Positions 23,933-42,494 of a stretch of 64,000 nucleotides of DNA are shown here, one piece after another; positions within the stretch are counted from its first letter, which is position 1, and every line of letters begins with the position of its first letter. The position numbers were made by a program, and so were the translations under genes. This DNA is from Bradyrhizobium sp. CCGUVB1N3. GTDB lineage: Bacteria; Pseudomonadota; Alphaproteobacteria; Rhizobiales; Xanthobacteraceae. The notes under the pieces are model-generated. The model was given only the letters and a program-made list of their open reading frames with translations. It was not told the DNA's origin and ran no database searches. The stretch is taken from positions 2,728,001-2,792,000 of the forward strand of contig NZ_JANADR010000001.1 of NCBI RefSeq assembly GCF_024199925.1, given 5' to 3'.

Positions 23933-23948
23933 GTGTCGACGAGTTGTG

Positions 23949-23978
23949 AAGTCCCGGAAGCCTCGGCTTCCGGGACTT
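23949..23978 (+). other. Perfect 14-bp intercistronic hairpin
   Basis: AAGTCCCGGAAGCC is followed after two bases by its exact reverse complement. The element sits 17 bp after the binding-protein stop and 55 bp before the first permease. There is no T-tract after the stem, so it is probably not a full terminator. Such hairpins often protect the binding-protein message and lower downstream expression. Confidence 0.7.
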
Positions 23979-24032
23979 GCCGTTTAGGGCTACGCGATGA
24001 TGCGCGCCTCTGAAGAGACCTGAAAGGAACCG

Positions 24033-25013: not shown

Positions 25014-25014
25014 G

Positions 25015-25986: not shown

Positions 25987-25999
25987 GTCCACCTCGTTC

Positions 26000-26986
26000 A
26001 TGACCGATACAGTTCTCTCCGTGCGTAACCTTCAGGTGGAGTTCGCCTCCCGCCGCGGCACGCTGCGCGCGATCGACGGCGTCTCCTTCGACATAGCCAA
26101 GGGCGAGGTGCTGGGCGTGGTCGGCGAGTCCGGTGCCGGCAAGTCGGTCACCGGGCTCGCGGTGATCGGCTTGATCGATCCGCCCGGCCGTATTGCCGGC
26201 GGCGAGATCCAACTCGCGGGCACGCGGATCGACAACCTGCCACCGGAGGAGATGCGCCGCGTCAGGGGCAAGCGGATCGGCATGATCTTCCAGGATCCGC
26301 TGACCTCGCTCAACCCGCTGTACAAGATCGGCGACCAGATCGTGGAGACGATCCGCACACATCTGAATCTGTCCGAGCAGGCCGCGCGCCGCCGCGCCAT
26401 CGATCTCCTCGCCGAGGTCGGCATCCCCGCGCCGGAGAAACGCATCGACGGCTATCCGCACGAATTCTCCGGCGGCATGCGCCAGCGCGTGGTGATTGCG
26501 CTCGCGATCTGCGCCGAACCCGAGCTGATCATTGCGGACGAGCCGACCACCGCGCTCGACGTTTCCGTGCAGGCGCAGATCATCTCGCTGATCAAGCGGC
26601 TCGGGCGCGACCACGGCACCGCGGTGATGCTGGTGACCCACGACATGGGCGTGATCGCGGAGGCCTCCGACCGCGTCGCGGTGATGTATGCCGGCCGTGT
26701 CGCCGAGATCGGCCCGGTGCAGGACGTCGTGAAGAATCCGCTGCACCCCTACGCCAAGGGCCTGATGGGTGCGATCCCGACGCTCGCCGGCGAGGACAAG
26801 CGCCTGGTACAGATCCCCGGCTCCATGCCGCGCCTGTCGGCGATCCCGCGCGGCTGCTCGTTCAATCCGCGCTGCGCCTTTGCCTTCGACCGCTGCCGCG
26901 TCGAGCGGCCCGAGCCGCTTGCCCGAGGCGCACAATCGGTCGCCTGCCACCTCTATGACAACGTCCCCGCGGAGAGCGCAGCATGA
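26000..26986 (+). CDS. Peptide-type ABC transporter ATPase D (system 1)
   Basis: The 328-residue ATPase has Walker A GESGAGKSVTG, signature FSGGMRQRVVIA, Walker B LIIADEPTTALD, and the switch histidine in MLVTHDMG. The C-terminal oligopeptide/dipeptide extension (PRGCSFNPRCAFAFDRC) with its cysteines is typical of DppD/OppD. Its stop overlaps the next ATPase start as ATGA, so the two nucleotide-binding subunits are coupled. Confidence 0.95.
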   Translation: MTDTVLSVRNLQVEFASRRGTLRAIDGVSFDIAKGEVLGVVGESGAGKSVTGLAVIGLIDPPGRIAGGEIQLAGTRIDNLPPEEMRRVRGKRIGMIFQDPLTSLNPLYKIGDQIVETIRTHLNLSEQAARRRAIDLLAEVGIPAPEKRIDGYPHEFSGGMRQRVVIALAICAEPELIIADEPTTALDVSVQAQIISLIKRLGRDHGTAVMLVTHDMGVIAEASDRVAVMYAGRVAEIGPVQDVVKNPLHPYAKGLMGAIPTLAGEDKRLVQIPGSMPRLSAIPRGCSFNPRCAFAFDRCRVERPEPLARGAQSVACHLYDNVPAESAA

Positions 26987-27972
26987 GCGCGCCGTTCGTC
27001 CAGGCCAGGAACCTGCGCCGCGTCTTCGACGTCTCGAAGCCATGGCTCAACCGGGTGCTCGAAGGCGGGCATCTCGAATATCTCAAGGCCGTCGACGGCG
27101 TCACCTTCGACATCAACAAGGGCGAGACCTTTGCGCTGGTCGGAGAATCAGGCTCAGGCAAGACGACCGTCGCACGGATGATCGTCGGGCTGCTGCCGCC
27201 AAGCTCGGGCCAGGTGCTGATCGACGGCGTCTCGATGACCGACCCGAGGCAGGCGCCGGCGCGCCGCCGCCTGCGCCGCCGCATCCAGATGATCTTCCAG
27301 GACCCCTACGCGAGTCTCAATCCACGCTTCCGGGTCGACGCCATCATCGCCGAGCCGATCCGCGCCTTCGACCTGATCCAGGGCGAGCGCGACATCCAGG
27401 CCCGGGTCGGCGAATTGTTGAGCCTGGTGGGGCTGCATCCAGACGACCGGCTGAAATACCCGCACGAATTCTCCGGCGGTCAGCGCCAGCGCATCGCGAT
27501 CGCGCGTGCGCTGGCGTCCGACGCCGAGTTCATCGTCTGCGACGAGCCGACCTCGGCGCTCGACGTGTCCGTGCAGGCGCAGATCCTCAATCTGATGCGT
27601 GACCTCCAGGACAAGTTCGGCTTGACCTACATGTTCATCAGCCACAACCTCGCGGTCGTCCGCCACATGGCGAGCCGCGTCGGCGTGATGTATCTCGGCC
27701 GCATCGCCGAGATTGCCGAAGGCCGCGAGCTGTTTGCGCGCCCGCGCATGCCGTACACGAAGATGCTGCTCGGCGCAGTGCCGGATCTCGCGATGTCCGG
27801 CCGCCAACGGATTCCGGTCAAGGGCGAGATCCCGAACCCGATCGATCCGCCGCCGGGCTGCGCGTTCAATCCACGCTGCCCCCTTGCGTTCGATCTCTGC
27901 CGGAAGGAGACGCCGCAACTGATCGACGGCGTCGCCTGCCACGCCGTCAACACCGCCCCGGTGCCGGCGTGA
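26983..27972 (+). CDS. Peptide-type ABC transporter ATPase F (system 1)
   Basis: The 329-residue ATPase carries Walker A GESGSGKTTVA, signature FSGGQRQRIAIA, Walker B FIVCDEPTSALD and switch HNLAV. The C-terminal extension has PPGCAFNPRCPLAFDLC. This is the DppF/OppF pattern and completes importer 1. The start overlaps the preceding stop by four bases. The gamma-glutamyltransferase-like gene follows after 88 bp. Confidence 0.95.
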   Translation: MSAPFVQARNLRRVFDVSKPWLNRVLEGGHLEYLKAVDGVTFDINKGETFALVGESGSGKTTVARMIVGLLPPSSGQVLIDGVSMTDPRQAPARRRLRRRIQMIFQDPYASLNPRFRVDAIIAEPIRAFDLIQGERDIQARVGELLSLVGLHPDDRLKYPHEFSGGQRQRIAIARALASDAEFIVCDEPTSALDVSVQAQILNLMRDLQDKFGLTYMFISHNLAVVRHMASRVGVMYLGRIAEIAEGRELFARPRMPYTKMLLGAVPDLAMSGRQRIPVKGEIPNPIDPPPGCAFNPRCPLAFDLCRKETPQLIDGVACHAVNTAPVPA

Positions 27973-28060
27973 CGCGTGCGTGCCATGCCGCCCGCGCAAT
28001 TGGCAGCGGGTCACGCCTGTGATCAATTGCGCCCGCCGCAAACAAGAAAAGCGATCTCCC

Positions 28061-29866
28061 ATGGCCAGCAACGTCAATCCGGATCCCTTCACGACGAGGC
28101 CCGAGATCGAAGGAACGTTCGGGGTCGTCGCCAGCACGCACTGGATCGCGACCGCCGTCGGCATGGCCATCCTCGAAAAAGGCGGCAACGCGTTTGATGC
28201 CGGCGTCGCGACCGCCTTCACGCTCCAGGTGGTCGAGCCGCATCTCAACGGCCCCGGCGGCGACGTGCCCATCATCGTGCATGACGTCAAGCGCGGCCGC
28301 ACCGAGGTGATCTGCGGCCAGGGCCCGGCCCCGGCGCGCGCCACCATCGCCCACTACAAGAGCGAAGGGCTCGACATGGTGCCGGGCACCGGCCTGCTCG
28401 CGGCCTGCGTTCCCGGCACCTTCGAATCCTGGATGATGCTGCTCCGCGACTACGGCACGATGCGCGTGCGCGACGTGCTGGAGCCAGCGATATCCTACGC
28501 ATGCGACGGCTATCCGCTGGTCGAGCGCGCCTGCGCGACGATCAAGACCGTCGAGCAACTGTTCCGCAGGCACTGGCCGACGTCGGCCGCGGTTTACCTG
28601 CCGAACGGCGAAGTCCCGAAACCCGGCACGCTCTTCACCAACAAGACGCTCGCCGCCACCTATTCGCGCATCCTGAGCGAAGCCGAAAGCGGCGGCGGTG
28701 GCCGCGACGCCGAGATCGAGCGCGCGCGGAACGCCTGGTCGAAAGGCTTCGTCGCCGAGGCCATCGACAAGTTCTGCCGGACCCAGGAGGTGATGGACGT
28801 CAGCGGCTCGCCGCATCGCGGCGTGCTCTCGGCCGACGACATGGCGCGCTGGCAGCCGACCATCGAAACGCCGCTGACCTATGATTACGGCCGCTACACC
28901 GTCTGCAAGGCCGGCGTCTGGAGCCAGGGTCCGGTCACCTTGCAGCAGCTTGCGCTGCTCAAGGGCTTTGCCCTCGACGGGCTCGATCCGACGGGCCCCG
29001 AATTCATCCATCTCCAGATCGAATGCGCCAAGCTTGCTTTCGCCGATCGCGAAAAGTTCTACGGCGATCCCAAGTTCAACGAGATCCCGGTCGCGACGCT
29101 ACTGTCGGATGCCTACAACGACGAACGCCGCAAGCTCGTCACCGACAAGGCCTCGCTCGACTTCCGGCCCGGCTCGGTCGAAGGCTTTGGCGGGGTCGTC
29201 AAGCTGCGCCGCGCCGAAGGCCAACGCGAGGCCGTCGGCGCGCTGGGCGCCGGCGAGCCCACCGTCGGTCGGTTCGGCGAGGTGCGCGGCGACACAGTGC
29301 ATTTCGACATCATCGACAAGGCCGGCAACATGGTGTCCTCGACGCCGTCGGGCGGCTGGCTACAATCCTCGCCGATCATTCCGGAGCTAGGCTTCTGTCT
29401 GGGCAGCCGCGCCCAGATGTTCTGGCTGGAGGAGGGTCACCCCGCCTCACTCGCGCCGGGCAAGCGTCCGCGCACCACGCTGTCGCCGACCATGGCGCTG
29501 CGCGACGGCGAGCCGTATCTCGCCTGGGGATCCCCGGGCGGTGACCAGCAGGATCAGTGGATCACCCAGTTCTTCCTGCGGCATATCCATTGCAACCTCA
29601 ATCTGCAGGAGGCGATCGACGCGCCGGCCTGGCATTCCGAGCATTTCCCGATCTCGTTCTGGCCGCGCACGGCGCGTCCCGGCGTGCTCGTGGTCGAGAA
29701 CCGCGTGCCCAAGGCGACGATCGAGAATTTGCGCGAGCGCGGGCATATCATCGAGGTCGGTCCCGACTGGTCCGAAGGCCGCCTCACCGCCGCATCGCGC
29801 GTCGGGGTGCGCCGACGCGCTGCCGCGAATCCACGGGGCATGCAAGGTTACGCGGCAGGACGCTGA
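28061..29866 (+). CDS. Gamma-glutamyltransferase-like Ntn-hydrolase
   Basis: The 601-residue protein has the gamma-glutamyltranspeptidase layout: GVVASTHWIATAVGMAILEKGG near the start (given in two parts: VVASTHWIA and AILEKGGNAFDA), LNGPGGDVP, and an autocleavage site before Thr412 in GDTVHFDIIDKAGNMVS. The oxyanion loop GSPGGDQQD is present. At the position of the lid Asn of the E. coli enzyme there is Gly in TPSGG, and no signal peptide is seen, so it is probably cytoplasmic and may have other substrates (acylated amines or amides). The ATG at 28061 replaces a longer frame. It lies between two peptide importers. Confidence 0.88.
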   Translation: MASNVNPDPFTTRPEIEGTFGVVASTHWIATAVGMAILEKGGNAFDAGVATAFTLQVVEPHLNGPGGDVPIIVHDVKRGRTEVICGQGPAPARATIAHYKSEGLDMVPGTGLLAACVPGTFESWMMLLRDYGTMRVRDVLEPAISYACDGYPLVERACATIKTVEQLFRRHWPTSAAVYLPNGEVPKPGTLFTNKTLAATYSRILSEAESGGGGRDAEIERARNAWSKGFVAEAIDKFCRTQEVMDVSGSPHRGVLSADDMARWQPTIETPLTYDYGRYTVCKAGVWSQGPVTLQQLALLKGFALDGLDPTGPEFIHLQIECAKLAFADREKFYGDPKFNEIPVATLLSDAYNDERRKLVTDKASLDFRPGSVEGFGGVVKLRRAEGQREAVGALGAGEPTVGRFGEVRGDTVHFDIIDKAGNMVSSTPSGGWLQSSPIIPELGFCLGSRAQMFWLEEGHPASLAPGKRPRTTLSPTMALRDGEPYLAWGSPGGDQQDQWITQFFLRHIHCNLNLQEAIDAPAWHSEHFPISFWPRTARPGVLVVENRVPKATIENLRERGHIIEVGPDWSEGRLTAASRVGVRRRAAANPRGMQGYAAGR

Positions 29867-29884
29867 AGGACTGACGAGCACGAC

Positions 29885-30591
29885 ATGACCTGGTCGATCA
29901 TCGCGCGAGATCCTGCCACCGGCCAGTTCGGCATCGCGGTTGCGACGCGATTCTTCGCCGTCGGCGCGCGCGTACCCTTCATCGCCGCCGGCCTTGGCGC
30001 CATCGCGACGCAGGCTTTCGTCAATCCCTATTATGGCATCGACGGCGTCAAGCTGTTGCGCGAAGGCCTGAATGCGCATGACGTGCTCGCGGCGCTGCTC
30101 GCGACCGATGATGGCCGTGAAAGCCGCCAGATCCACATCATGGATGCCAGCGGTGAAGTCGCGGCGCACACCGGCCGCGACTGCGTCGACTGGTGCGGAC
30201 ACACGGCGGGAAGCGGCTTCTCCATTGCCGGCAACATGCTTGCCGGTCCCGACGTCCTCAGCGAGACGGCAAAGACCTACATCGCCAATGACAGCCTGCC
30301 CTTCCCGCGCCGCCTGCTCGCGGCAATGCGCGCCGGCGAGGCCGCCGGCGGCGACAAGCGCGGCAAGCAATCTGCTGCACTCCTCATTCATGGCGAGGAG
30401 GAATGGTCCGCGCTCGACCTGCGCGTCGACGATCATCCAGATCCGCTTGCCGAGCTGGCACGGCTCGAGCAGGTCAGCAACGAGCTCTGGGTGCATTTCC
30501 GCGCCTCGCTGCCGACCCGCCGGAATCCTGCGGGGATCACCGACCGCGCCGTGATCGATGCCCGCATCGCGGCGGCCCGCGCGACAGAGCA

Positions 30592-30595
<4 letters not shown>
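29885..30595 (+). CDS. DUF1028 family protein (Ntn-hydrolase-like)
   Basis: The 236-residue protein starts MTWSIIARDPATGQFGIAVAT and contains VGARVPFIAAGLGAIATQA, the conserved DUF1028 N-terminus, and SIAGNMLAGPDVL. DUF1028 proteins share an Ntn-hydrolase-like fold, but no reaction has been firmly assigned. Here the gene follows the gamma-glutamyltransferase-like gene by 18 bp and overlaps the next ATPase gene as ATGA, so it is part of the peptide-transport operon and probably acts on the imported compound. Confidence 0.9.
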
Positions 30596-31581
<986 letters not shown>

Positions 31582-31600
31582 TGGCGCTGCTCTCTCCTCT

Positions 31601-31730
31601 CGTGCCCCGGGCGCAGCGCAGCACGAGCGCAGCGCAGTGGTGCGCTGCTGAACCGGGGCCCATTTTGCGACGAGCTGGGTCCCGGTTCAGCGTCGCAACA
31701 CTTCGCGTTGCGCCGCGCCCGGGACACGAG
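31601..31730. repeat. Palindromic repeat, family B copy 2, inside the ABC operon
   Basis: The element begins CGTGCCCCGGGCGCAGCGCA and ends GCGCCGCGCCCGGGACACGAG, its inverted partner. Internal hairpins carry AACCGGGGCCC and GGGTCCCGGTTCAGCGTCGC. The right half is nearly identical to the right half of copy 3 (34428-34557). It separates the two ATPase genes of importer 2. Confidence 0.85.
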
Positions 31731-31756
31731 ACAACTCCTCGCGCGGAGCAGATGCG

Positions 31757-32866
31757 ATGACCGCGCTGCTCGAGGTCGAAAATCTGGTCAAGCATTTCGT
31801 TGCCGAACGTTCGCTGCTCGGCAGACCCAAGGCCCTCGTCAAGGCTGTCGACGGCGTGAGCTTTACGCTCGACGCCGGCAAGACGCTGGCGCTGGTCGGC
31901 GAATCCGGCTGCGGCAAATCGACGGTCAGCCGGCTGGTGCTGCGGCTGATCGAGCCGGATGCCGGCAGCGTTCGCTTCGAAGGTCGCGATCTGCTCGCGC
32001 TCGACCCCAATGCGCTGCGCGCCTTCCGCCGAAAGGCCCAGATCATCTTTCAGGATCCTTACGCCTCACTCAACCCGCGCATGACGGTTAGCCAGATCCT
32101 GACCGAGCCGCTCGCACTGCATGACCTCGTCCCGTCATCGCGCCGGCGCGAGCGGGTTGCGGAACTTCTGCAACTCGTCGGGCTGGAGCCGCGCCTCGCG
32201 CGCCGCTATCCGCATGAATTCTCCGGCGGCCAGCGCCAGCGCATCGCGATTGCCCGTGCGCTGGCGGTCGAGCCCAGGCTGATCATCTGCGACGAGCCGG
32301 TCTCGGCGCTCGACGTGTCGATCCGCTCGCAGATCCTGAACCTGCTGCGCGAATTGCAGGATCGGCTCGGCCTAGCCTACATTTTCGTGTCCCACGACCT
32401 TGCCGTGGTGAAGCACATCGCCGACCGCGTCGCCGTGATGAATCTCGGCCGCATCCTCGAGACGGCCGAGGCCGACGCGCTGTTCGCCGCACCGCGCCAT
32501 CCCTATAGCCGCGCGCTGCTGTCCGCGATTCCCCTGCCGCAGCCGCACGCAAAGCGAGGCACCATCCTGCTCAAGGGCGAGATGCCGAGCGCGCTCGATC
32601 CGCCGGCAGGATGCCGCTTCCACACCCGCTGCCCGTTCGTGGTCGACCGCTGCCGCAGCGAGGCACCGCAACTTCTGGCAGACAGCAGCGGCCACGCCAC
32701 GGCATGTCACCGCGTCGCGGAGCTGCCCCCGGCCGACGCCATCCTGCCCGCCCCGCACGCCTTGTCGCCGGCGCTCGCGAAATTGGTTGCCGCCTTCAGC
32801 CGAAAGACGGAAGGCGCTGGCCCCTCCGGGGTTGGTATACAAGATGCGCCGGCAACACCGAGATAG
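31757..32866 (+). CDS. Peptide-type ABC transporter ATPase F (system 2)
   Basis: The 369-residue ATPase carries Walker A GESGCGKSTVS, signature FSGGQRQRIAIA, Walker B LIICDEPVSALD, switch SHDLAVV and the C-terminal extension PAGCRFHTRCPFVVDRC. It is about 40 residues longer than its system-1 counterpart because of an extra proline/alanine-rich tail. It belongs with the system-2 binding protein that starts 36 bp downstream. Confidence 0.94.
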   Translation: MTALLEVENLVKHFVAERSLLGRPKALVKAVDGVSFTLDAGKTLALVGESGCGKSTVSRLVLRLIEPDAGSVRFEGRDLLALDPNALRAFRRKAQIIFQDPYASLNPRMTVSQILTEPLALHDLVPSSRRRERVAELLQLVGLEPRLARRYPHEFSGGQRQRIAIARALAVEPRLIICDEPVSALDVSIRSQILNLLRELQDRLGLAYIFVSHDLAVVKHIADRVAVMNLGRILETAEADALFAAPRHPYSRALLSAIPLPQPHAKRGTILLKGEMPSALDPPAGCRFHTRCPFVVDRCRSEAPQLLADSSGHATACHRVAELPPADAILPAPHALSPALAKLVAAFSRKTEGAGPSGVGIQDAPATPR

Positions 32867-32902
32867 CCGCCAGCCATGTCAGACAGTTTTGGGGATGATG
32901 CA

Positions 32903-34411
32903 ATGAAGATGTTCCGTCTCGCGGCGACCGCCGCCACATTGCTGATGTCACTCGGCGCCGCGCAGGCCCAGACCACGCTGCGCATCGGGCTCGCCGAGGA
33001 CCCAGATATCCTCGATCCGACCATGGCGCGCACCTATGTCGGGCGTATCGTGTTCGCCGCATTCTGCGACAAGCTGTTCGACATCGACGAGAAGCTGAAC
33101 ATCGTGCCGCAGCTCGCGCTGTCCAGCGAGACGGCCGATGACGGCAAGGCGCTCGTCATCAAGCTCCGCCCCGGCGTGAAATTCCAGGATGGCGAGCCGT
33201 TCGACGCGGAGGCCGCAAAGTTCTCCCTTGAGCGACACCTCACCTTCCCGGGCTCGTTCCGCAAGCCCGAGCTCGCCTCGGTCGATCACGTCGAGGTGGT
33301 CGATCCCCTCACCGTCAGGCTGGTGCTGAAGGCACCGTTCTCGCCGCTGCTCGCGCAGCTCACCGATCGCGCCGGCATGATGGTGTCGCCGAAAGCGGCG
33401 AAAGCCGAAGGCGACAAGTTCGGCCTGCATCCGGTCTGCGCCGGTCCCTACAAATTCGTCGAGCGCGTGCAGCAGGACCGCATCGTGTTCGAGAAATTCG
33501 CCGACTATTGGAACAAGGACAATGTCTTCATCGACCGCGTCGTGTTCCAGCCGATCGTCGACTCCACCGTGCGGCTTGCCAATCTGAAATCCGGCGGGCT
33601 CGACCTGATCGAGCGCGTGCTCGCGACCGACCTGAAGGACGTGCGGGCCGACTCGCGACTGAAGGTCGCGACCGCCATCGAGCTCGGCTATCAGGGCGTC
33701 ACGCTCAACATCGGCAAGGACAAGGCCAAGGGGCCGCTCAGCCAGTCCGCCAAAGTCCGCCAGGCACTCGATCTCGCTATCGACCGCGAGGCGATCAACC
33801 AAGTCGTCTTCAACGGCGAGTTTCAGCTCGGCAATCAATGGGTCAATCCCGACCATCCCTACTATCAAAAGGCTGTTCCGGTCCGCGCCCGCAATGTGGA
33901 GAAGGCCAAGGCACTGCTGAAGGAAGCCGGCGTGACGCCGCCTGTCAGCGTCGATTTCCTGGTGCCGAAGGGCGCGGAAACGGAGACGCCGGCGCAGGTG
34001 ATCCAGTCGATGGCGGCAGAAGCCGGATTCGACATGAAGATCCGCGTCACTGAGTTTGCGACCGGGCTGAAGCAGGCCGAGGCCGGCGATTATCAGGCCT
34101 TCGTGCTCGCCTGGAGCGGCCGCGTCGATCCCGACGGCAATTCCTACATCTTCCTGCACGGCGACGCCCCGCAGAACTATGGCGCCTGGAACAATGCACA
34201 GGCCGACAAGGCGCTCGAGGAGGCCCGGCTCGTCAGCGATCCCGACAAGCGCAAGGCGATCTATGAGACTCTGGCGAAGCTGGTCCAGGACGAAGTGCCG
34301 ATCCTCTATCTCTACCACCGCCGCATCATCATCGCCCACACGACCAAGCTTGAAGGTTACAAGCAGATGCCTGATGGACTCGTGCGCGTCGTCGGCCTCA
34401 AGCTGAAGTGA
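32903..34411 (+). CDS. Peptide-type ABC transporter substrate-binding protein (system 2)
   Basis: The 502-residue family 5 binding protein has a signal peptide (MKMFRLAATAATLLMSLGAA, cleavage after AQA) and the mature features LRIGLAEDPDILDPTMA, KLRPGVKFQDGEPFDA and HPVCAGPYKFVERV. An ATG 27 bp upstream is possible, but the ATG at 32903 is preceded by GGGG and gives a proper signal peptide. It differs clearly from the system-1 protein, so the two importers probably bind different solutes. Confidence 0.92.
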   Translation: MKMFRLAATAATLLMSLGAAQAQTTLRIGLAEDPDILDPTMARTYVGRIVFAAFCDKLFDIDEKLNIVPQLALSSETADDGKALVIKLRPGVKFQDGEPFDAEAAKFSLERHLTFPGSFRKPELASVDHVEVVDPLTVRLVLKAPFSPLLAQLTDRAGMMVSPKAAKAEGDKFGLHPVCAGPYKFVERVQQDRIVFEKFADYWNKDNVFIDRVVFQPIVDSTVRLANLKSGGLDLIERVLATDLKDVRADSRLKVATAIELGYQGVTLNIGKDKAKGPLSQSAKVRQALDLAIDREAINQVVFNGEFQLGNQWVNPDHPYYQKAVPVRARNVEKAKALLKEAGVTPPVSVDFLVPKGAETETPAQVIQSMAAEAGFDMKIRVTEFATGLKQAEAGDYQAFVLAWSGRVDPDGNSYIFLHGDAPQNYGAWNNAQADKALEEARLVSDPDKRKAIYETLAKLVQDEVPILYLYHRRIIIAHTTKLEGYKQMPDGLVRVVGLKLK

Positions 34412-34427
34412 CGCGCTTGGCAACCCG

Positions 34428-34557
34428 CTCGTGTCCCGGACGCGGCGCGGCGCGCGAGCGCTGCACCGCAGAGCCGGGACCCAGAGCCCCAAACAATGAT
34501 GCATGGGTCCCGGTTCAGCGTCGCAACATTGCATGTTGCGCCGCGCCCGGGACATGG
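34428..34557. repeat. Palindromic repeat, family B copy 3, abutting a permease gene
   Basis: The element starts CTCGTGTCCCGGACGCGGCG and ends GCCGCGCCCGGGACATGGGAG. Its right half (from GGGTCCCGGTTCAGCGTCGC) matches copy 2 almost base for base. The end of the element supplies the GGGAG that acts as ribosome binding site for the permease ATG at 34566. Confidence 0.85.
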
Positions 34558-34565
34558 GAGCGTCC

Positions 34566-35507
34566 ATGCTGAACTTCCTCGCCCGCCGTCTCGCGCAGAT
34601 CGTGCCGACGCTGTTCTTCGTGTCGGTGCTGATCTTCTCGCTCCAGCAACTCCTGCCGGGCGATCCGGCGCTGGTGATGGCCGGCGAAGAGCGCGATCCC
34701 GCCGTGATTGCGCAGATCCGCCAGCAATACCGGCTCGATCAGCCGATCCCCGTCCAATACGCCTATTGGGTCAAGGGCGTTTTGACCGGCGACTTCGGCG
34801 AGTCCCTGCGCAACAAGATACCGGTGCGCGCGCTGATCGCGCAGAAGCTGCCGGTGACGCTGCAACTCGCATCGATGGCGATCCTGATCGCATTCCTGAT
34901 CGGCATTCCCGCCGGCATCGTTTCAGCGGTGAAGAAGGGCACCGCCTGGGACTACGGCGCCAACCTGTTCGCGCTGTGGGGCATCTCGACGCCGAACTTC
35001 TGGCTCGGCATCATGCTGATCTTCCTGTTCTCGATCGAGCTGGGCTGGCTGCCGGCCTCCGGCTATGTGCCGCTGACGGAGAACTGGCGCGCGAGCCTTG
35101 CCGCCACGATCATGCCGGCCTTCGTGCTCGGCAACGCCATCGCCGCGATCCTGATGCGGCATACGCGCAGCGCCATGCTCCAGGTGCTGGAAAGCGACTA
35201 TGTCCGCACCGCGCGCGCCAAAGGCCTCCTGGAGCGGACCGTCATCCTCAAGCACGCTATGCGCAATGCGCTGACGCCGGTGATCACGCTCGGCGCGCTC
35301 GAGCTCGGCACGCTGTTGTCGGGCGCGGTGCTGACCGAGCAGATCTTTTCCATTCCCGGCTTCGGCAAGCTGATCGTGGATGCCGTGTTCAACCGCGACT
35401 ACGCGGTCGTGCAGGGCGTCGTGCTGGTCACCGCGACGATCTACATCACGCTCAACCTGATCGCCGACATCGCCTACATCCTCGTCAATCCGCGGCTGAG
35501 GGGTTAG
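34566..35507 (+). CDS. Peptide-type ABC transporter permease B (system 2)
   Basis: The 313-residue DppB/OppB-type permease begins MLNFLARRLAQIVPTLFFVS and has PVPVQYAYWVKGV-like (QPIPVQYAYWVKG), the EAA loop SDYVRTARAKGLLERTV, LGALELGTLLSGAVLTEQIF and SIPGFGKLIVDAV. The frame extends upstream into repeat B3, but the ATG at 34566 has a GGGAG site and starts at the family N-terminus. Its stop is four bases from the next permease ATG. Confidence 0.93.
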   Translation: MLNFLARRLAQIVPTLFFVSVLIFSLQQLLPGDPALVMAGEERDPAVIAQIRQQYRLDQPIPVQYAYWVKGVLTGDFGESLRNKIPVRALIAQKLPVTLQLASMAILIAFLIGIPAGIVSAVKKGTAWDYGANLFALWGISTPNFWLGIMLIFLFSIELGWLPASGYVPLTENWRASLAATIMPAFVLGNAIAAILMRHTRSAMLQVLESDYVRTARAKGLLERTVILKHAMRNALTPVITLGALELGTLLSGAVLTEQIFSIPGFGKLIVDAVFNRDYAVVQGVVLVTATIYITLNLIADIAYILVNPRLRG

Positions 35508-35510
35508 GTC

Positions 35511-36398
35511 ATGGCCGACACCGTGCTCTCGGCCAATCCCGTCACTGACGCGAGCGAGCTCGACAGTCCCGCACGCCGCGCCCGGCGGCGCCTGTTCAGG
35601 CGCAAGGCCGCGGTCGCGGGGCTCGTCGTGATGACGGCGTTCATCCTGCTGGCCCTGCTGGCGCCGCTGATCGTTCCCTATGATCCCGTCGCCACGAGCT
35701 GGAGCCTGGTGCGAAAAGCCCCCACCGCGCTACACTGGTTCGGCACCGACGAGCTCGGCCGCGACATTCTGAGCCGCGTCATCTACGGCGCGCGTGCCTC
35801 GCTGCTCGCCGGCGCAATCTCGGTGGCGATTGCGCTCGGCATCGGCGTGCCGCTCGGCCTGCTCGCCGGCTATCGCGGCGGTTTCACCGACGCACTGATC
35901 AGCCGGATCACCGATGCAATGCTCGCATGCCCGTTCCTGATCCTGGCTATCGCGCTCGCAGCGTTCCTGGGTCCAAGCCTCGGCAACGCCATGATCGCGA
36001 TCGGCATCTCGGCGACGCCGGTATTCATTCGCCTGACCCGCGGGCAGGTGCTGAGCGTCAAGGCCGAGGACTATGTAGAAGCCGCGCGCGCCCTCGGCAA
36101 CCCGTCCTGGCGGATCGCATTCGCCCACATCCTGCCGAACATCCTGCCGGCGCTCCTGGTTCAGGCGACGCTGTCGATCGCCGCGGCCATCATCGCGGAA
36201 GCCGCATTGTCGTTTCTCGGCCTCGGCCAGCAGCCGCCGGCGCCGTCCTGGGGCAGCATGCTCAACGCCGCCCAGCGTTTCCTGACGCAGGCGCCGTGGA
36301 TGGCGATCTGGCCAGGCCTTGCGATTTTCCTGGTGGTGCTGTCCCTGAACCTGCTCGGCGACGGCCTGCGCGACGCACTCGATCCGCGCCAGCGCTAG
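35511..36398 (+). CDS. Peptide-type ABC transporter permease C (system 2)
   Basis: The 295-residue DppC/OppC-type permease has the arginine-rich N-terminus ARRARRRLFRRKAAVAG, then HWFGTDELGRDILSRVIYG, the EAA loop EDYVEAARALGNPSWRI, AEAALSFLGLGQQPP and LNLLGDGLRDALDPRQR at the end. It completes importer 2. Its stop codon overlaps the stop of the minus-strand unknown gene at 36395, so the two transcripts converge head-on with no spacer. Confidence 0.93.
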   Translation: MADTVLSANPVTDASELDSPARRARRRLFRRKAAVAGLVVMTAFILLALLAPLIVPYDPVATSWSLVRKAPTALHWFGTDELGRDILSRVIYGARASLLAGAISVAIALGIGVPLGLLAGYRGGFTDALISRITDAMLACPFLILAIALAAFLGPSLGNAMIAIGISATPVFIRLTRGQVLSVKAEDYVEAARALGNPSWRIAFAHILPNILPALLVQATLSIAAAIIAEAALSFLGLGQQPPAPSWGSMLNAAQRFLTQAPWMAIWPGLAIFLVVLSLNLLGDGLRDALDPRQR

Positions 36399-37138
36399 AT
36401 CACGACCTCGCGCACCACGCGCCGGCAATCCATCTCGAATTCGAGATCCACCACCGGTGGCCGCGCAAAATGCCAGGTGAGGCCGGAGCGCAGCGCCCCG
36501 CGACGCACCAGCTCGTCGGTCAGGGCGTGGTGGAAATTGCGGATCGAATAGGCCTGCACGGCCGTCGTCTCCTTCCAGCCGAAGCCGAATGCCGCAAGGC
36601 GGCTCTCCATCTGCGAGGTGGTGAAGCGGACCTTCTCCGTGATGCCCTCCGGGCTGAGGTCGCGATAACGCACGGTGCGCTCGACATAGCTGCCGCTTCC
36701 CTCCCGCGCCTCGGCGCCGCCGGCGATCACGAAACTCGGCGTGCTCGACCGCGTCGGCCGTGTGAAGGAGAACGCATGGAAGGACGGCTCGGCGGGTGGA
36801 TCGATCTCGGGACAGACATTGCTGCGCGCCACCGGATTGGTGGTGCCGTCGAAGATGCCCCACTCGGACAGCGTCTTGACGTAGTGCAGATTGAAATTCC
36901 GGAAGCCTTCTTCCGTGAACGCGGCCGGTGAGCGCAGCTCGCAGGCACAGAACGCCGTCAGCGGACGCCCGGCCTCGCGGATGAATTTTGCGGCGAGCGC
37001 AAATCCTTCGGCGAGAGGCACCAGACGATCGAAGCGAACCCGCTCGATTTCGTAGCCGGGATCGGCGGCGGCGCCCGCCGAATACTGGAACACGGACGGA
37101 ATGAAGCGATAATTGCCGGCGGCGAATTCGCGGGTCAT
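36395..37138 (-). CDS. Conserved protein of unknown function, weakly RidA-like
   Basis: I do not recognise this 247-residue protein with confidence. It has no signal peptide or membrane segment. The region RPLTAFCACELRSPAAFTEEGF and a following NLHYVKTLSEWGI vaguely recall RidA/YjgF-like proteins. The C-terminal half is mixed alpha/beta. The ATG at 37138 follows AGGGATTCGAAA and lies 10 bp after the cyclase gene stop, so it is the last gene of the binding protein-kinase-cyclase operon. Its role in that pathway is unknown. Confidence 0.65.
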   Translation of the reverse strand: MTREFAAGNYRFIPSVFQYSAGAAADPGYEIERVRFDRLVPLAEGFALAAKFIREAGRPLTAFCACELRSPAAFTEEGFRNFNLHYVKTLSEWGIFDGTTNPVARSNVCPEIDPPAEPSFHAFSFTRPTRSSTPSFVIAGGAEAREGSGSYVERTVRYRDLSPEGITEKVRFTTSQMESRLAAFGFGWKETTAVQAYSIRNFHHALTDELVRRGALRSGLTWHFARPPVVDLEFEMDCRRVVREVVI

Positions 37139-37148
37139 TTTCGAATCC

Positions 37149-38402
37149 CTATTCCAGTTGCATGCGGACGCCCTTGGCGCCGTTGAGCAGGCGCCTGAGG
37201 TGGAAGCCGGCCAGCGCATCGTCTGCGTGCATGCCGACCAGCGCGGCGAAGGCCGGCATCGCCGCGACGTCACCGGCTTCAAGCTTGGCGAAGGCTTCGG
37301 AGTATTGCGTCGTCAGAGGTGTTTCGAATCTTGCCGGCGGGAGCGGTTCGAAGGCCCGCAGCGGCTCGCTGCGGCCGCGCAGCAAGAGGTCGCCCACTGG
37401 CCGCCCCTGGAAATTCGCCGCGCTCTTGGCGACGCTGGCGCTGACGCAGATGCGCGTGCCCAGATACTTGTTGGCGGATTCCAACCGCGCCGCCGTGTTG
37501 ATGGTGTCGCCATAGGCGGTGTAATCGAAGAAGCGGCTACCGCCGAAATTTCCGACCAGCGCCGGCCCGGCATGGACGCCGATGCGTGTCGTGCCGAAAT
37601 TGACGCCCTTGTCCTTCCAGCGCTGGCGAAAGCCCTCGGCCCATATATCGAGATCGTGGGCGCAGGCGACCGCACGCGTCGCGAAATCTGGCTGATCGCC
37701 GGGCGCGTTGAACAGCACCTGGATGGCATCGCCGATGATCTTTGCAACGGTGCCTTCGTGCTCGAACACGATGTCGGTCATCCCGCCGACATAGGTGTTG
37801 AGGAGCTCGCCCAGCGTTTCCGGCGCCGCGCTCTCGACCAGCGTCGTGAAGCCGGTGATGTCGGTGAAAATGGTCGCGACGTCGCGCCACTGCACCTCCA
37901 TGCCGTCGCTCTCGCCGCTCGCCGCGGCCAGACGCTTGGCGATCTCGGGCGAGAAATAGCGCGACAGCGAGGCATGGGCGCGCTCGGCCTCCGCCTGCCG
38001 TCGCCGCGCCTCGCGCAGCGTCTCGACGTGGCGGATGGTCTTCTGGATCGTGGTCTCCAGATCCGCGAAGTCGATCGGCTTGGTCAGGAAGTCGAAGGCA
38101 CCGCGATTCATCGCGGTTCGGATGTTGCTCATGTCGCCATAGGCCGAGACGATGATGGTCGACTTCTTGTCCTCGGCCTCCTGGAGCTTCTGGAGCAGCG
38201 ACAGCCCGTCCATCCGCGGCATGTTAATGTCGGACACCACCAGATCGACATCCGGATGCAGCTCGAGCGATTGCAGCGCCTCGACGCCGTCATGGGCAAA
38301 CATGAAGCTGACGAGCCCCTCGCGAATCTGCCTGCGAAACTTCTGGAGGACCAGCGCCTCCAGATCGGGCTCATCATCGACAACGAGAATCGTGGATGTC
38401 AT
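37149..38402 (-). CDS. Response regulator-class III adenylate cyclase fusion
   Basis: The 417-residue protein has an N-terminal REC domain (phospho-acceptor Asp58 in VVSDINMP, Lys108 in TKP), a short coiled linker (ETLREARRRQAEAERAH) and a class III cyclase domain. The cyclase has metal Asp181 (FTDITGF) and Asp225 (GDAIQ), adenine-selecting Lys221 and Asp299 (AYGDT), and transition-state Asn302 and Arg306 (NTAARLES). All are present, so it should make cAMP when phosphorylated. The start overlaps the upstream regulator stop as ATGA. It is the natural output of the kinase at 38785-41367. Confidence 0.92.
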   Translation of the reverse strand: MTSTILVVDDEPDLEALVLQKFRRQIREGLVSFMFAHDGVEALQSLELHPDVDLVVSDINMPRMDGLSLLQKLQEAEDKKSTIIVSAYGDMSNIRTAMNRGAFDFLTKPIDFADLETTIQKTIRHVETLREARRRQAEAERAHASLSRYFSPEIAKRLAAASGESDGMEVQWRDVATIFTDITGFTTLVESAAPETLGELLNTYVGGMTDIVFEHEGTVAKIIGDAIQVLFNAPGDQPDFATRAVACAHDLDIWAEGFRQRWKDKGVNFGTTRIGVHAGPALVGNFGGSRFFDYTAYGDTINTAARLESANKYLGTRICVSASVAKSAANFQGRPVGDLLLRGRSEPLRAFEPLPPARFETPLTTQYSEAFAKLEAGDVAAMPAFAALVGMHADDALAGFHLRRLLNGAKGVRMQLE

Positions 38403-38788
38403 GCCGCTTGCTCGAGCCTGGTGTCGATCTCCTGCCGCAGCAGCGCAAAATCGATCGGCTTGGTCAGAAGCCCGACCGCGCCGCGCTCGATCGCCTTCCG
38501 CCGTGTGTCCGCATCGCCGTAGGCCGTGATCATGATCACGGGTACATCCGGGCGTTCCGCGCGCACCTTCGGCAGCATGTCGAGCCCGCTCATGCCGGGC
38601 ATGTTGATGTCGGACAGGATCAGGATCAGCGAGGGATCGCGCACCGCAACCGCACGCTCGATCGCCACCGGCGCGGACGGCGCAAACTCCATCTGGAAAC
38701 GGCCCGCGCGCAGATCGCGCCGGAACTGCTGACGAAACAGCGCCTCAACGTCGGGCTCGTCGTCGACGACAAGGATGTAGACGTTCAA
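38399..38788 (-). CDS. Single-domain response regulator
   Basis: The 129-residue REC-only protein has acidic DDEPD near the start, phospho-acceptor Asp60 in LILSDINMPGM and Lys110 in LLTKPID. It has no output domain and could act as a phosphate sink, a relay, or a competitor of the neighbouring REC-cyclase. The start is unusual: no ATG fits, but a TTG at 38788 lies six bases after a GGAGG inside the kinase gene and overlaps the kinase stop as TTGA. Confidence 0.9.
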   Translation of the reverse strand: MNVYILVVDDEPDVEALFRQQFRRDLRAGRFQMEFAPSAPVAIERAVAVRDPSLILILSDINMPGMSGLDMLPKVRAERPDVPVIMITAYGDADTRRKAIERGAVGLLTKPIDFALLRQEIDTRLEQAA

Positions 38789-41367
38789 TTCCTGCCTCCG
38801 GTATCGCCTTCTGCCAGCATGCGCGGCAGCGTAATGATGAATTCAGTGAATGCACCCGGCTCAGTCATTACGTCGACCGTGCCGCCGTGCTGTTTCACCA
38901 CGATGTCGTGACTCATGGACAGGCCAAGCCCGGTTCCCTCGCCGGCCGGCTTGGTGGTGAAGAAGGGATTGAACATTTTTTCCTTCACCTCGGGCGGGAT
39001 GCCGGTGCCGTTGTCGCGGATCCTGATTTCGACCTTGTTGCCGAGATTCCTGGTGGACGCGCTCAACGTCGGCTCGAACGCGCCGCCCTCGCTCTCCTTG
39101 CGCTTGGTCGCGGCATAGAAGCCGTTCGAGATCAGGTTGAGGAAGACGCGGGTGATCTCCTGCGGATAGATATCGAGCATGCCGGCGGCCGGATCGAGGT
39201 CGCGCTTGAGCGAGATGTTGAAGCCGGGCTTTTCGGCGCGCGCGCCATGATAGGCAAGGTTGAGGCTCTCCTCGACGAGCGCGTTGATGTCGGCCGGGCG
39301 ACGCTCGCCCGCCCCTTCGCGCGAATGCAAGAGCATGTTCTTGACGATGGAATCGGCGCGCTTGCCGTGCTGAACCACCTTCTCGAGATTACCCTTGAGC
39401 ATATGGGTGAGTTCGGCGACCTCCTCCTTGGTCTTGTCGTCGAGGCCTACCGATTGCAGGACCTCGTTGAGCTCGTCGATCAACTCCGTCGACACCGAGG
39501 AGAAATTGTTGACGAAGTTGAGCGGGTTCTTGATCTCGTGCGCGATACCGGCGGTGAGCTGGCCGAGCGAGGCCAGCTTCTCGGTCTGGATCAGGCGATC
39601 CTGGGCGGTGCGCAGCTCGTCGAGCGATTGGGAGAGCTCCTTGGTGCGCTCCTGGACCTGCTCGAACAGGCGCACATTCTCGATCGCAATGACCGCCTGG
39701 TCGGCGAAGGTCTGGACGAGATCCATCTGGCGCTGGCTGAAGGGGCCCGGATCGGGCCGTCCCAGCAGAAGAACACCTTCAACCGCCTTGTCGCGCATCA
39801 GCGGCACGGCGAGCACGGCACGATAGAGGCCGATCACAGGCGCCTGTCCGAAATTATACTCGGAGTCCTCGCGAATGTCGGGAACGTGAACCGGCTTGCC
39901 GTCCATGAAGACGCGGCCGGTGATGGTCTCACGTCCCGGTCTGATCGGGTGAGCCTCCATGAAATCGATGAAGGCTTGCGTGCAGCCCGACTCGGCCTTG
40001 AGCCGCATCACCTCGCCGTCGCGGAGGCAGATGATGCCGAGCGTGGCGCCGCACAGCGCCTGTGCTGATTCAGTCAGCGTCGTCAGCACGGATTTCAGAT
40101 CGAACGCGGAACGGCTGATGACCTTGAGCACGTCGGCGGTTGCCGTCTGCTGCTGGAGGGACTCGCTCAATTCCGCCGTGCGCTGCTCGACCTTGTTTTC
40201 CAAATCCGCGTAGGATTCCTGCAAGCGCGCGCCCATGTCGTTGAACTGGTTGGCGAGCCCTTCCAGCTCGTCGCCGGTCCGAATCGAGATGCGCTGCGAG
40301 AAGTCGCCGCCGCCGATGCGCTCGGCGCCGGTGCGCAGTGCCTGGATCGGGCCGACCATGCGCCGCGCCAGGAAAATCCCCGCGAGCACTGCGAAGATGG
40401 ATGCTGCGAGCAGCACGATGGCGAGACGCTGCAGGGAGGCATAGAGCGAGGCATAGGCTTCCTCGACCGGAAGCTCCACGAACATGGTCCAGCCCAGCGG
40501 AGCGATCGGCGCGGACGCGGTCAGCACCTTCTGTCCCTGGATATTCGTCGCCTCCTGCAACGAGTCAGGCATGGTCCCGCCGCCGGCCTGCGCGGCGCGC
40601 ACCTGCTCGAGCCTGGACATGTCGGTGTTGCGCAATACCAGGCTGATGTCGGGATGCGCGATCAGCCGGCCCTGCGAGGCCACCACATAGGCATGCCCGC
40701 GCTCGCCGACCTTGATCTGCGAGACGACGTCCCAGATCAGCTTGAGATTGACTTCCGCGATGCTGACGCCGGCGTCCTTGCGCGTGCCGGCGAGCGCCAG
40801 CGTCATGTAGGGCTCGGACTCCCGCCGGAAATAGACCGGCCCGTAATAGACCTTATGCGCAACGGCCTCGGTGAATTTCGCATCATTGGAGAGGTCGATC
40901 CCGCTATCGACGACGTCCATCGCCAGGCGCGAGACGCGCAGGCGCTCCTTGCCGGTCGAATCGACCTGGGCGAGTTCGGTGATCGCCGGAACCTGGCGCA
41001 GAAGCCGCAGCGCATCGAAGCGGCGCTGCTCGATCGAGCCCGCCGACCACGGCAGTTGCGTGGTCCAGCCAAGCTGGCTCTCGATCTCCTTGACGAACTG
41101 GCTGATCTTGGCGGCAGCCGCCTCGGCCTGCTCGCGCTGAACACGGATCAGCGCGGCCTTGTGCTCGCGATAATAGAAGAACACCTCGAAAAGACCGTTG
41201 GCGAGCAGCGCAACGGCCACCACAGCCACGAACAGGGCGACATATTTGGTAAAGAGCCGGGTCCGGATCCCGGGCCGCCGGCCCTGCCCGGAAGCGGCAT
41301 CGCCCGCCGCTGCGCTACCAGGCAACGACCGGCCCTGCGGCGTGTCGGGATGGAGGGAAATGCTCAT
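38785..41367 (-). CDS. dCache-HAMP-GAF sensor histidine kinase
   Basis: The 860-residue membrane kinase has a first membrane helix at about 41-66, a periplasmic dCache-type domain to about 305 (GHAYVVASQGRLIAHPDIS), a second helix at about 314-335, HAMP, a coiled coil, a GAF domain at about 420-565, and a kinase core with phospho-acceptor His610 (TAGIAHEIKNPLNFV), N box VFLNLISNG, RDNGTGIP, MFNPFFTTK and GEGTGLGLSMS. It senses a periplasmic ligand and a cytoplasmic signal. It lies 54 bp downstream of the binding-protein gene and is coupled to two response regulators. Confidence 0.94.
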   Translation of the reverse strand: MSISLHPDTPQGRSLPGSAAAGDAASGQGRRPGIRTRLFTKYVALFVAVVAVALLANGLFEVFFYYREHKAALIRVQREQAEAAAAKISQFVKEIESQLGWTTQLPWSAGSIEQRRFDALRLLRQVPAITELAQVDSTGKERLRVSRLAMDVVDSGIDLSNDAKFTEAVAHKVYYGPVYFRRESEPYMTLALAGTRKDAGVSIAEVNLKLIWDVVSQIKVGERGHAYVVASQGRLIAHPDISLVLRNTDMSRLEQVRAAQAGGGTMPDSLQEATNIQGQKVLTASAPIAPLGWTMFVELPVEEAYASLYASLQRLAIVLLAASIFAVLAGIFLARRMVGPIQALRTGAERIGGGDFSQRISIRTGDELEGLANQFNDMGARLQESYADLENKVEQRTAELSESLQQQTATADVLKVISRSAFDLKSVLTTLTESAQALCGATLGIICLRDGEVMRLKAESGCTQAFIDFMEAHPIRPGRETITGRVFMDGKPVHVPDIREDSEYNFGQAPVIGLYRAVLAVPLMRDKAVEGVLLLGRPDPGPFSQRQMDLVQTFADQAVIAIENVRLFEQVQERTKELSQSLDELRTAQDRLIQTEKLASLGQLTAGIAHEIKNPLNFVNNFSSVSTELIDELNEVLQSVGLDDKTKEEVAELTHMLKGNLEKVVQHGKRADSIVKNMLLHSREGAGERRPADINALVEESLNLAYHGARAEKPGFNISLKRDLDPAAGMLDIYPQEITRVFLNLISNGFYAATKRKESEGGAFEPTLSASTRNLGNKVEIRIRDNGTGIPPEVKEKMFNPFFTTKPAGEGTGLGLSMSHDIVVKQHGGTVDVMTEPGAFTEFIITLPRMLAEGDTGGRN

Positions 41368-41421
41368 CCTGCCGAGCCTAGCAAGAAGGCCGTGGCTTGT
41401 CTCTTGCCGCAGTGCACAAGG

Positions 41422-42405
41422 CTATTCGATGACTTCGTCGGCGAGCGCCAGCAAGGTCGGTGGAATCTCGAGTCCGGTGGCCTTCGCCGTCTTGAGATTG
41501 AGCACGAGGGGATAGCGGGTCGGCTGCTCGAACGGCAGATCACCGGGGTTCGCGCCGTTGAAAATGCGGGCGACCAGTGATGCTGCCCGCTCGAAGGATT
41601 CCGACACGTCCGGTCCGTAGGACATCAGCCCGCCGTCGCGGGCGAGGTCGTCATTTTCGTAGATCGCCGGCAGCTTTCGGACGGCAGCGAACTCGAACAC
41701 CCGCTTGCGATTGAGAATGGTGAGCGCGTCCGCCACCATCAGGATGCCATCCGGCAGATCGCCATTCATCACTGAGAAGGCCTCGTCGAAGTCGTCGGGT
41801 TCGCGGACGCCGAGCGCCTGCACGGTCAGCCCAAGCGCCTGCGCGGCCTTCGCCGATGCCTGATAGCGCATGGTCATGCCGAGGTCGTCCTTGTTCCAGA
41901 GCATGGCGACCTTGGTCAGTTTCGGCGACATCTCTTTCAGCAACGCCAGCCGCTTGGCACTGAGCGTCGCCGCGACGTCCGAAATGCCGGTGATGTTGCC
42001 GCCGGGATGGGCAAGGCTCTCGATGAGCCGGGTCTCGACGGGATCGCCGATGCCGCTGGCCGCAACTGTCGGGAGGCCCACCGCCTTGGCGGCCATGGCC
42101 GTCGGATAGCCAATAATCACGATGGCGTCGACGCCCCTGGACTTCAGCTCGGCGACCAGCGAGGGGAGTTTTGCGACATCGCCGGCCGCGCCGCGAGGCT
42201 CAAGGGTCAGGTTCTGACCGAGGCGAAACCCGCGCTCACCAAGCGTCCTGATCAGTATCTTGCCGCGTGGACTGGTCTCTGCAATCGGCGCGATCGGCGT
42301 CAGCGTGCCGAGATGGTAGGTCCTGCCGCCCTGGGCTGCCGCCGAGCCGGGCCACAACAGCGAAGCGCAGCCGAGCCCTCCCAGGAATTCGCGCCGCCTC
42401 ATCAT
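41422..42405 (-). CDS. Orphan ABC-type periplasmic binding protein (TrpX-like)
   Basis: The 327-residue protein belongs to the ABC substrate-binding group PF04392 (TrpX/YtrX-like). It begins with a Tat-type signal (RRREFLGG, then a hydrophobic run ending SAAAQ) and has TLTPIAPIAE, VAELKSRGVDAIVIIGYPTA and HPGGNITGIS, which line the cleft in this family. No permease or ATPase gene is adjacent; instead a histidine kinase follows, so it may present the ligand to the kinase. The ATG at 42405 follows GGGAAGAC. Confidence 0.88.
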   Translation of the reverse strand: MMRRREFLGGLGCASLLWPGSAAAQGGRTYHLGTLTPIAPIAETSPRGKILIRTLGERGFRLGQNLTLEPRGAAGDVAKLPSLVAELKSRGVDAIVIIGYPTAMAAKAVGLPTVAASGIGDPVETRLIESLAHPGGNITGISDVAATLSAKRLALLKEMSPKLTKVAMLWNKDDLGMTMRYQASAKAAQALGLTVQALGVREPDDFDEAFSVMNGDLPDGILMVADALTILNRKRVFEFAAVRKLPAIYENDDLARDGGLMSYGPDVSESFERAASLVARIFNGANPGDLPFEQPTRYPLVLNLKTAKATGLEIPPTLLALADEVIE

Positions 42406-42454: not shown

Positions 42455-42494
42455 ACAACAAAAAAGCGGCAATGGCGATGGCCATTGCCGCTTT
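42455..42494 (-). terminator. Rho-independent terminator of the RND efflux operon
   Basis: On the minus strand a 14-bp perfect stem (arms 42463-42476 and 42481-42494, four-base loop) is followed by TTTTTGTTG. It lies 21 bp beyond the RND pump stop codon and is the natural end of the tetR-MFP-RND transcript. It also separates that operon from the binding protein-kinase operon, which runs in the same direction. Confidence 0.9.

Follow-up and report, generated by a model that had tools for sequence, protein, structure and literature searches.

A candidate cAMP-signalling operon with a conserved kinase-cyclase output and variable sensory inputs in Bradyrhizobium

Substrate-binding proteins (SBPs) can provide the input of signalling receptors, and LuxP-LuxQ is one example of an SBP-activated sensor kinase. 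Other such kinases are BctC-BctE and XylFII-LytS, and in the accessible part of the source that names them the targets activated by SBPs are listed as chemoreceptors, sensor kinases, cyclic di-GMP enzymes and Ser/Thr kinases, a list without adenylate cyclases (PMC9602780). In Rhodoplanes, orphan binding proteins of the TctC family lie near 14 of 22 kinase genes, as the accessible part of that report states (PMC5994714). The present analysis concerns a five-gene locus of Bradyrhizobium sp. CCGUVB1N3, located in a stretch of 64,000 nucleotides (G000:C1:2728001-2792000, hereafter the window) of a 10.4 Mb genome. This locus combines an orphan PF04392 binding protein with a sensor histidine kinase, a protein consisting of a receiver domain only (REC-only), a REC-adenylate cyclase and a gene of probably metabolic type. 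Comparison of sequences gives a modest preference to reading it as a cyclic AMP (cAMP) signalling operon whose output is fixed and whose inputs can be exchanged.

All five genes lie on the minus strand and are tightly packed in the order SBP, kinase, REC-only, REC-cyclase and last gene. The SBP and kinase are separated by 54 nt, the two following junctions overlap by 4 nt each, and a gap of 10 nt precedes the last gene. These coordinates, domains and gaps agree with an earlier note on this DNA, which had described five closely spaced or overlapping genes on one strand. The SBP (41422-42405) scores 126.9 bits against PF04392 (gathering cut-off 25.9), and its N-terminus, MMRRREFLGG, reads by eye as a twin-arginine translocation (Tat) signal, in keeping with the Tat export proposed in that note. 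Its relatives of solved structure, by sequence, are 6hni, 3lft and 3lkv, and the AlphaFold model of the mature part has a predicted local distance difference test score (pLDDT) of 96.1. The kinase (38785-41367, 860 amino acids) carries dCache_1, HAMP, GAF, HisKA and HATPase domains according to Pfam. Its periplasmic sensor domain (residues 60-305; 40453-41190), the proposed dock of the SBP, passes the Pfam cut-off for dCache_1 and has the double-Cache fold. A GAF cassette of 185 amino acids (39613-40167), assigned to type 1 from the identity profile and cassette typing, is flanked by repeated RTx(E/D)LSxS linkers. The REC-only response regulator (38399-38788, TTG start) matches Response_reg at 82.8 bits; the REC-cyclase (37149-38402) matches Response_reg at 85.0 and Guanylate_cyc at 71.1 bits, and its best PDB match is the class III chain 1wc0.

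The locus resembles the SBP-activated kinases BctC-BctE and XylFII-LytS in that a periplasmic SBP is encoded beside a kinase with an extracytoplasmic domain, here a dCache, on which the SBP is proposed to dock. It differs from them in that its SBP belongs to an orphan PF04392 subclass and is optional and sometimes arrayed, and in that the likely output is a cyclase acting through a receiver. In the proposed mechanism, the SBP would capture a small periplasmic molecule, close around it and then dock on the dCache domain. The signal passing through dCache and HAMP would set kinase activity jointly with a second signal, which the GAF cassette would read in the cytoplasm. Phosphate would then flow to the REC-cyclase, changing cAMP, and may also flow to the REC-only protein, which would tune or branch the flow.

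The conserved unit of this system is the three-gene core of kinase, REC-only protein and REC-cyclase, to which the binding protein is an optional addition. Comparison was made over the best 80 of 561 loci from a scan of named genomes; outside the window, genes were called with a codon-usage script of our own, and domain labels came from profiles built from the loci themselves. The core order is found in 62 of the 68 loci with a full-length REC-cyclase, and the core also occurs in Methylobacterium, Mesorhizobium, Rhizobium, Sinorhizobium, Ruegeria and Roseovarius. The REC-cyclase itself is present at E <= 1e-80 in 13 of 149 genomes of the family, and its closest named relatives are from Bradyrhizobium (97% identity to B. 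iriomotense). The kinase input varies between core loci: some kinases have dCache-HAMP and any number of GAF domains from zero upwards, some have GAF arrays but no dCache, and some have other sensors. The five-gene order had been proposed in the earlier note as the arrangement to be sought in other genomes; it was rejected as a conserved unit, since a complete SBP together with the other four genes occurs in only 10 of 80 loci, with one further locus (L054) carrying an SBP remnant, and 67 of 91 syntenic loci contain no SBP at the site.

Class III adenylate cyclases are characterized by two metal-binding Asp residues, a Lys/Thr or Lys/Asp adenine pair, an Asn and an Arg. In the window cyclase, each of these residues, with Thr as the partner of Lys in the adenine pair, aligns with its counterpart in 1wc0, which we take to be Spirulina CyaC. 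All are kept in the 68 relatives apart from that Thr, which is T in 60, S in 7 and A in one. This bears out the earlier statement that all catalytic residues are present, and a preference for ATP, with cAMP as the output, is likely as predicted from these residues. The similarity to 1wc0 includes the Lys/Thr pair, but the window differs in having a separate receiver-cyclase in one operon with a kinase and a REC-only protein. The REC-only protein keeps its phospho-Asp and Lys in 64 of 64 relatives and a switch residue that is T in 63 and S in one, while its N-terminal Asp pair falls in an alignment gap in 2 of 64. Such intact residues would be compatible with any of three roles: the competing phosphate sink proposed in the earlier note, a relay, or an output of the protein's own. 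The gene order, with receiver and catalytic residues kept, supports the earlier suggestion that the kinase drives the REC-cyclase.

A second variable element is the GAF domain. As judged by comparison of aligned kinases, it is an exchangeable cassette that is replaced, missing or multiplied between repeated linkers, a property beyond the scope of the earlier note. Kinase matches at E <= 1e-200 occur in 99 of 146 genomes of the genus, with contig-edge partials (G218, G283) and second copies (G202, G277, G258, G138, G267) left out. Removal of 26 identical sequences from the 142 kinases with a cassette call, and of a further 25 without an RND pump gene upstream, leaves 91 loci. In 28 kinases of this RND type, identity to the window is 85-98% in dCache and HAMP and 83-98% in the kinase core; the GAF domain is 99%, 86-88% or 23-43% identical, or absent (five kinases). 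On average, flanks are about 88% and different GAF types 44% identical. The window and L025 are 88-100% identical in kinase flank DNA and mostly 37-57% in the GAF, with edges near residues 400 and 565. In the kinases inspected, each unit starts at LxxQTA and ends at the RTx(E/D)LSxS linker, and kinases without GAF fuse both linkers cleanly. Per kinase, 0 (17 loci), 1 (66), 2 (6) or 3 (2) units are found, and a 70% single-linkage cut gives 24 types over 116 unique kinases, two units being badly split (345 and 5 amino acids). Pairwise cassette identity is bimodal, with only 7 of 2145 pairs between 70 and 80%, and among the 75 pairs whose flank DNA is 91% identical or more, 38 carry different cassette labels.

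Another possible, though less probable, account is that the GAF differences reflect differential loss from an ancestral tandem array pruned in each lineage, rather than exchange. Kinases with two or three GAF units are mostly built from types also found singly (0, 1, 2, 4, 6 and 12, not 8, 21 and 23), for example 4+0 and 4+8+1, as this account expects. Same-type cassettes also diverge like their flanks in protein (89.6 vs 89.7%) and somewhat more in DNA (type 0: 81.4 vs 86.4%), and only 4 of 720 same-type pairs have cassettes more than 5 points more alike than their flanks. Since replacement-like cases are so few, differential loss from older arrays probably contributes. Against loss as the sole process, the window and L025 have flank DNA that is 94.4% identical, yet their cassettes are of types 1 and 5, and the identities of L034/L249 (flanks 97.6%, cassette 82.3%) and L249/L041 (flanks 89.2%, cassette 95.4%) match what replacement predicts. 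The flank tree of the 91 loci requires 44 or more changes of cassette label, vs a mean of 54.5 and a lowest value of 49 in 200 shuffles, and average-linkage typing of the 83 rows that have at most one GAF gives 28-36 changes; this is a quick tree with 21 of 88 inner branches below 80 support, which can inflate such counts. GAF presence changes 12 times (shuffle mean 15.9). A search of the host genome for a donor of the L025-type cassette found none, the best match beyond the kinase itself reaching 37% over the full cassette and 46% over 114 residues. For types 7 and 12, a GAFx8 kinase of L093 has GAF units with 75-78% identity.

The proposed SBP input is suggested by a recurrent association between PF04392 genes and one dCache subfamily. 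In the host genome, a dCache search recovered the kinase itself and three relatives: at 49% identity a hybrid kinase, at 45% a dCache-HAMP-cyclase and at 37% a dCache-HAMP-GAF-cyclase. The first two of these relatives lie directly downstream of a PF04392 gene, with a 4-nt overlap for the dCache-HAMP-HK-REC-Hpt hybrid histidine kinase (HK; L131:5324-9111) and a 7-nt gap for the dCache-HAMP-cyclase (L136:5542-8281); the 37% relative has no such neighbour. A dCache-only search of 297 order and 289 class genomes, of which 19 and 7 matched, brought the relatives at 42-71% identity to 23 (these two included), and 20 of their loci contain PF04392. On the strand of the relative, it lies upstream in 13 loci and downstream in 3 (one a weak match of 23 bits); the arrangement is divergent in 2 loci and convergent in another 2. 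Seven further testable relatives (43-72%) came from 31 family genomes, three with and four without PF04392, so that PF04392 lies alongside 23 of 30 testable relatives at 42-72%, or 26 of 39 when orthologues are counted. The outputs of these relatives include kinase, hybrid kinase-REC and cyclase. A class at 36-38% identity has no PF04392 in any of the 8 loci examined.

Across the 31 genomes (30 genera), weak PF04392 genes and the dCache subfamily occur together in 9, the SBP only in 1, the dCache only in 1 and neither in 20 (Fisher 4.8e-6). This value sets aside six genomes, four with a single gene in an MFS cluster (G001, G006, G013, G018) and two with weak partial matches of 22.8 and 28.4 bits (G022, G037). 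In 70 pairable triads, 24 of 46 dCache kinases have an SBP no more than 3 kb away, vs 1 of 24 kinases without dCache, and the figure for non-syntenic dCache kinases is 14 of 18. The earlier proposal that the binding protein acts on the kinase thus finds comparative support in the 23 of 30 relatives, the three kinds of output and the co-occurrence over 31 genomes. Mean pairwise identity is 61% for dCache (17 rows) vs 36% for the SBPs (42 rows), and SBPs within arrays share 32-73%. A better conserved dCache and divergent SBP arrays would fit one dock for several binding proteins. At the syntenic site, SBP presence changes 9 times on the flank tree, with a shuffle mean of 21.4.

A broader proposal, which we hold tentatively, is that the expanded orphan PF04392 family docks on this one dCache subfamily as plug-in senses of a single receptor platform. 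In such a platform, cAMP would be controlled either through a kinase and REC-cyclase or directly through a cyclase, and GAF cassettes would recombine at repeated linkers.

Several observations weigh against a binding-protein input. An SBP hit is present in only 24 of 91 unique syntenic Bradyrhizobium loci (21 long, two partial and one remnant) and missing from the other 67, where the distance between the RND gene and dCache is 227-362 nt, vs a median of 1260 nt with an SBP. Orthologues at 85-92% identity, which lie outside the 30 testable relatives, have PF04392 in 3 of 9 loci (L300, L302, L306), one on the other strand. Among the relatives, L308, L322, L329, L334, L335, L339 and L343 have no adjacent SBP, and genome G009 has no PF04392 match at all. 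From the SBP side, a dCache receptor lies within 700 nt in 7 of 54 surveyed weak-class regions; these are the regions with a called SBP, which excludes L133, L172 and L190, and seven regions of the MFS cluster were also left out. Counting all six set-aside genomes as SBP-only raises the co-occurrence value to 0.006, and counting the last two alone gives 9.6e-5. The SBPs beside similar dCaches are often less than 40% identical, and the correlation of SBP and dCache distances is weak (Spearman 0.256, reached in 3 of 2000 permutations, 32 pairs). Constraint on dCache is not measurably lower in loci without an SBP, the difference in divergence ratio being reached in 391 of 2000 shuffles. In addition, one SBP-kinase pair showed no interaction, and the accessible part of that report cautions against taking adjacency as proof (PMC11113362). 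The 7 of 54 count and the weaker co-occurrence with six genomes added are the reasons why the operon reading is favoured only modestly and the platform proposal less strongly still.

The alternative that survives best among those concerning this input, though it is rather unlikely, is that dCache binds a small molecule itself. The PF04392 gene would then be either an easily lost passenger or an accessory whose product competes for the ligand or buffers it. Solved dCache relatives do bind amino acids, gamma-aminobutyric acid (GABA) and other small molecules directly, the domain is equally conserved in the 67 loci without an SBP, and 63 of its positions, including FRxxSEPY and PDxSLVLR, are invariant over 17 rows. 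The amino-acid dCache motif was not evident by eye in the window domain. What direct sensing leaves unexplained is that this subfamily is associated with PF04392 in several genera and with several outputs, and that no such link is seen in the 8 examined loci of the 36-38% class. The frequent lack of an SBP at the site and the equal constraint on dCache suggest that SBPs act in trans or that dCache also senses directly; genome G024 has no SBP at the site, yet carries eight near-full-length PF04392 genes elsewhere. A relaxed constraint on dCache after SBP loss was considered (rough ratio 0.67 vs 0.85) and rejected, as it failed the shuffles above and reverses without one 14-row clade.

Far less probable is that the SBP feeds an importer encoded elsewhere while the kinase merely senses the same nutrient: the genome has 96 PF02653 permease genes, all 7 strong PF04392 matches (>300 bits) of the order genomes are accompanied by permease and ATPase genes (ATPase by Walker A, by eye), and in L164 three weak-class SBPs come after genes resembling a permease and ATPase set on their own strand. 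On the other side, the 19 weak-class (orphan) proteins of the host genome score 85-161 bits vs 311-362 for the importer class, and just 2 of the 54 weak-class regions have a PF02653-type permease no more than 3 kb away (L129, opposite strand; L164, same strand), a count that is weak evidence because most regions also lack a receptor. The window SBP shares family PF04392 and sequence relatives of solved structure with the TrpX importer proteins; it differs from TrpX in scoring 111.6 bits against the equivalog NF041285 (cut-off 390) and in having no PF02653 permease or ATPase alongside.

The orphan SBPs also occur in other settings. Another cyclase gene lies within 1 kb in 4 of the 54 regions, and most regions have no such cyclase, dCache receptor or PF02653-type permease; a general rule that orphan SBPs sit beside receptors was rejected on the count of 7 in 54. 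Receptor-adjacent SBPs do not form one clade either: each of the three in the host genome has its best match in some other orphan SBP (42, 46 and 38%), and the three resemble one another less. The remnant at the syntenic site of L054 (7194-7328, 45 residues) is a trace of loss. Loci L052, L049, L057, L076 and L059 have several divergent PF04392 SBPs around one kinase-REC-cyclase triad, with up to eight hits in L052. Four consecutive PF04392 genes are found in the host genome (L130:5349-10252), and no dCache receptor or PF02653-type permease is labelled in this 16 kb region. In L164 (G011), the genes ahead of the three weak-class SBPs are two PF02653-type permeases and two more, which encode 234 and 241 amino acids; this set has a liv-type appearance and is possibly an importer. 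Loci L154-L156 and L192-L195 represent another conserved cluster, with a PF04392 SBP and a large MFS protein, and L192 also has HAMP-SpoIIE and HATPase_c_2 nearby; this cluster is perhaps a binding-protein-linked partner-switching system. The 36-38% dCache class mentioned above is a separate dCache-HAMP-GAF-cyclase group (L296, L323-L326, L340-L342) with open reading frames of 826-880 amino acids; five more members (G573, G549, G508, G122, G086) lie outside the 8 loci. Locus L336 was set aside from the dCache counts because it lies at a contig edge.

The surroundings of the locus contain transporters of another family. An RND pump gene lies upstream of the SBP, beyond a terminator-like hairpin on the minus strand (42463-42494; 14-pair stem and T-rich tail); six terminator-like sites were found in the region vs 5.0 expected, and the stem of this one is the longest by far. 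On the other side, two oligopeptide-type permease genes on the plus strand (34503-36398) run into the end of the last gene with a convergent, overlapping tail, and oligopeptide-type ATPases lie at 30592-32866. They are part of two oligopeptide-type ATP-binding cassette (ABC) clusters around gamma-glutamyltranspeptidase and DUF1028 genes (22400-36398), which converge with the operon. Among the 80 loci, the oppABC part adjoins the operon in most of RND type. This other transporter family has its own SBP_bac_5 binding proteins and is thus not the missing transporter of the PF04392 protein. The earlier remark that no permease or ATPase lies nearby fails literally, as oligopeptide-type genes adjoin the operon, but holds for the PF02653 type, since none lies close and the nearest of the 96 is about 64 kb away.

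The last gene (36395-37138, minus strand, 247 amino acids) had been described as lacking a known role. It matches the CnbZ family (2-amino-5-chloromuconate deaminase; NCBIfam NF049982) at 382.9 bits, with a cut-off of 220, a homology that the earlier note did not contain. The pathway context of a CnbZ enzyme, genes of 2-aminomuconate-type degradation, was considered among the scanned neighbours only, which lie within the window and are the signalling genes and the oligopeptide/gamma-glutamyltranspeptidase cluster. The CnbZ gene adjoins the core in 30 of 80 loci, those with RND-type synteny, and is absent in 50. It is probably a co-located metabolic gene outside the core.

Each part of this system is of a known kind. 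A search of open-access literature, by titles and abstract starts, returned nothing about sensing through PF04392 proteins or about kinases exchanging GAF cassettes; neither cassette exchange nor the combination of orphan PF04392 proteins, one dCache subfamily and cAMP output was met there. The expanded orphan binding proteins near kinases of Rhodoplanes, also an alphaproteobacterium, offer a parallel, but they belong to a different SBP family and, in the accessible part of that report, are not tied to one receptor subfamily or to cAMP (PMC5994714). In Sinorhizobium, cAMP regulates symbiosis, as the accessible part of another report describes (PMC13001267). The turnover of GAF domains provides kinases that are natural chimeras, about 95% identical in their flanks but unlike in their sensors, for the study of GAF sensing and of the tolerance of linkers to exchange. 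The gene pairs of PF04392 and dCache-HAMP-cyclase make SBP activation of adenylate cyclases directly testable. If the tentative platform proposal is true, it would include binding-protein-activated adenylate cyclases, a class outside the targets listed in the accessible part of PMC9602780.

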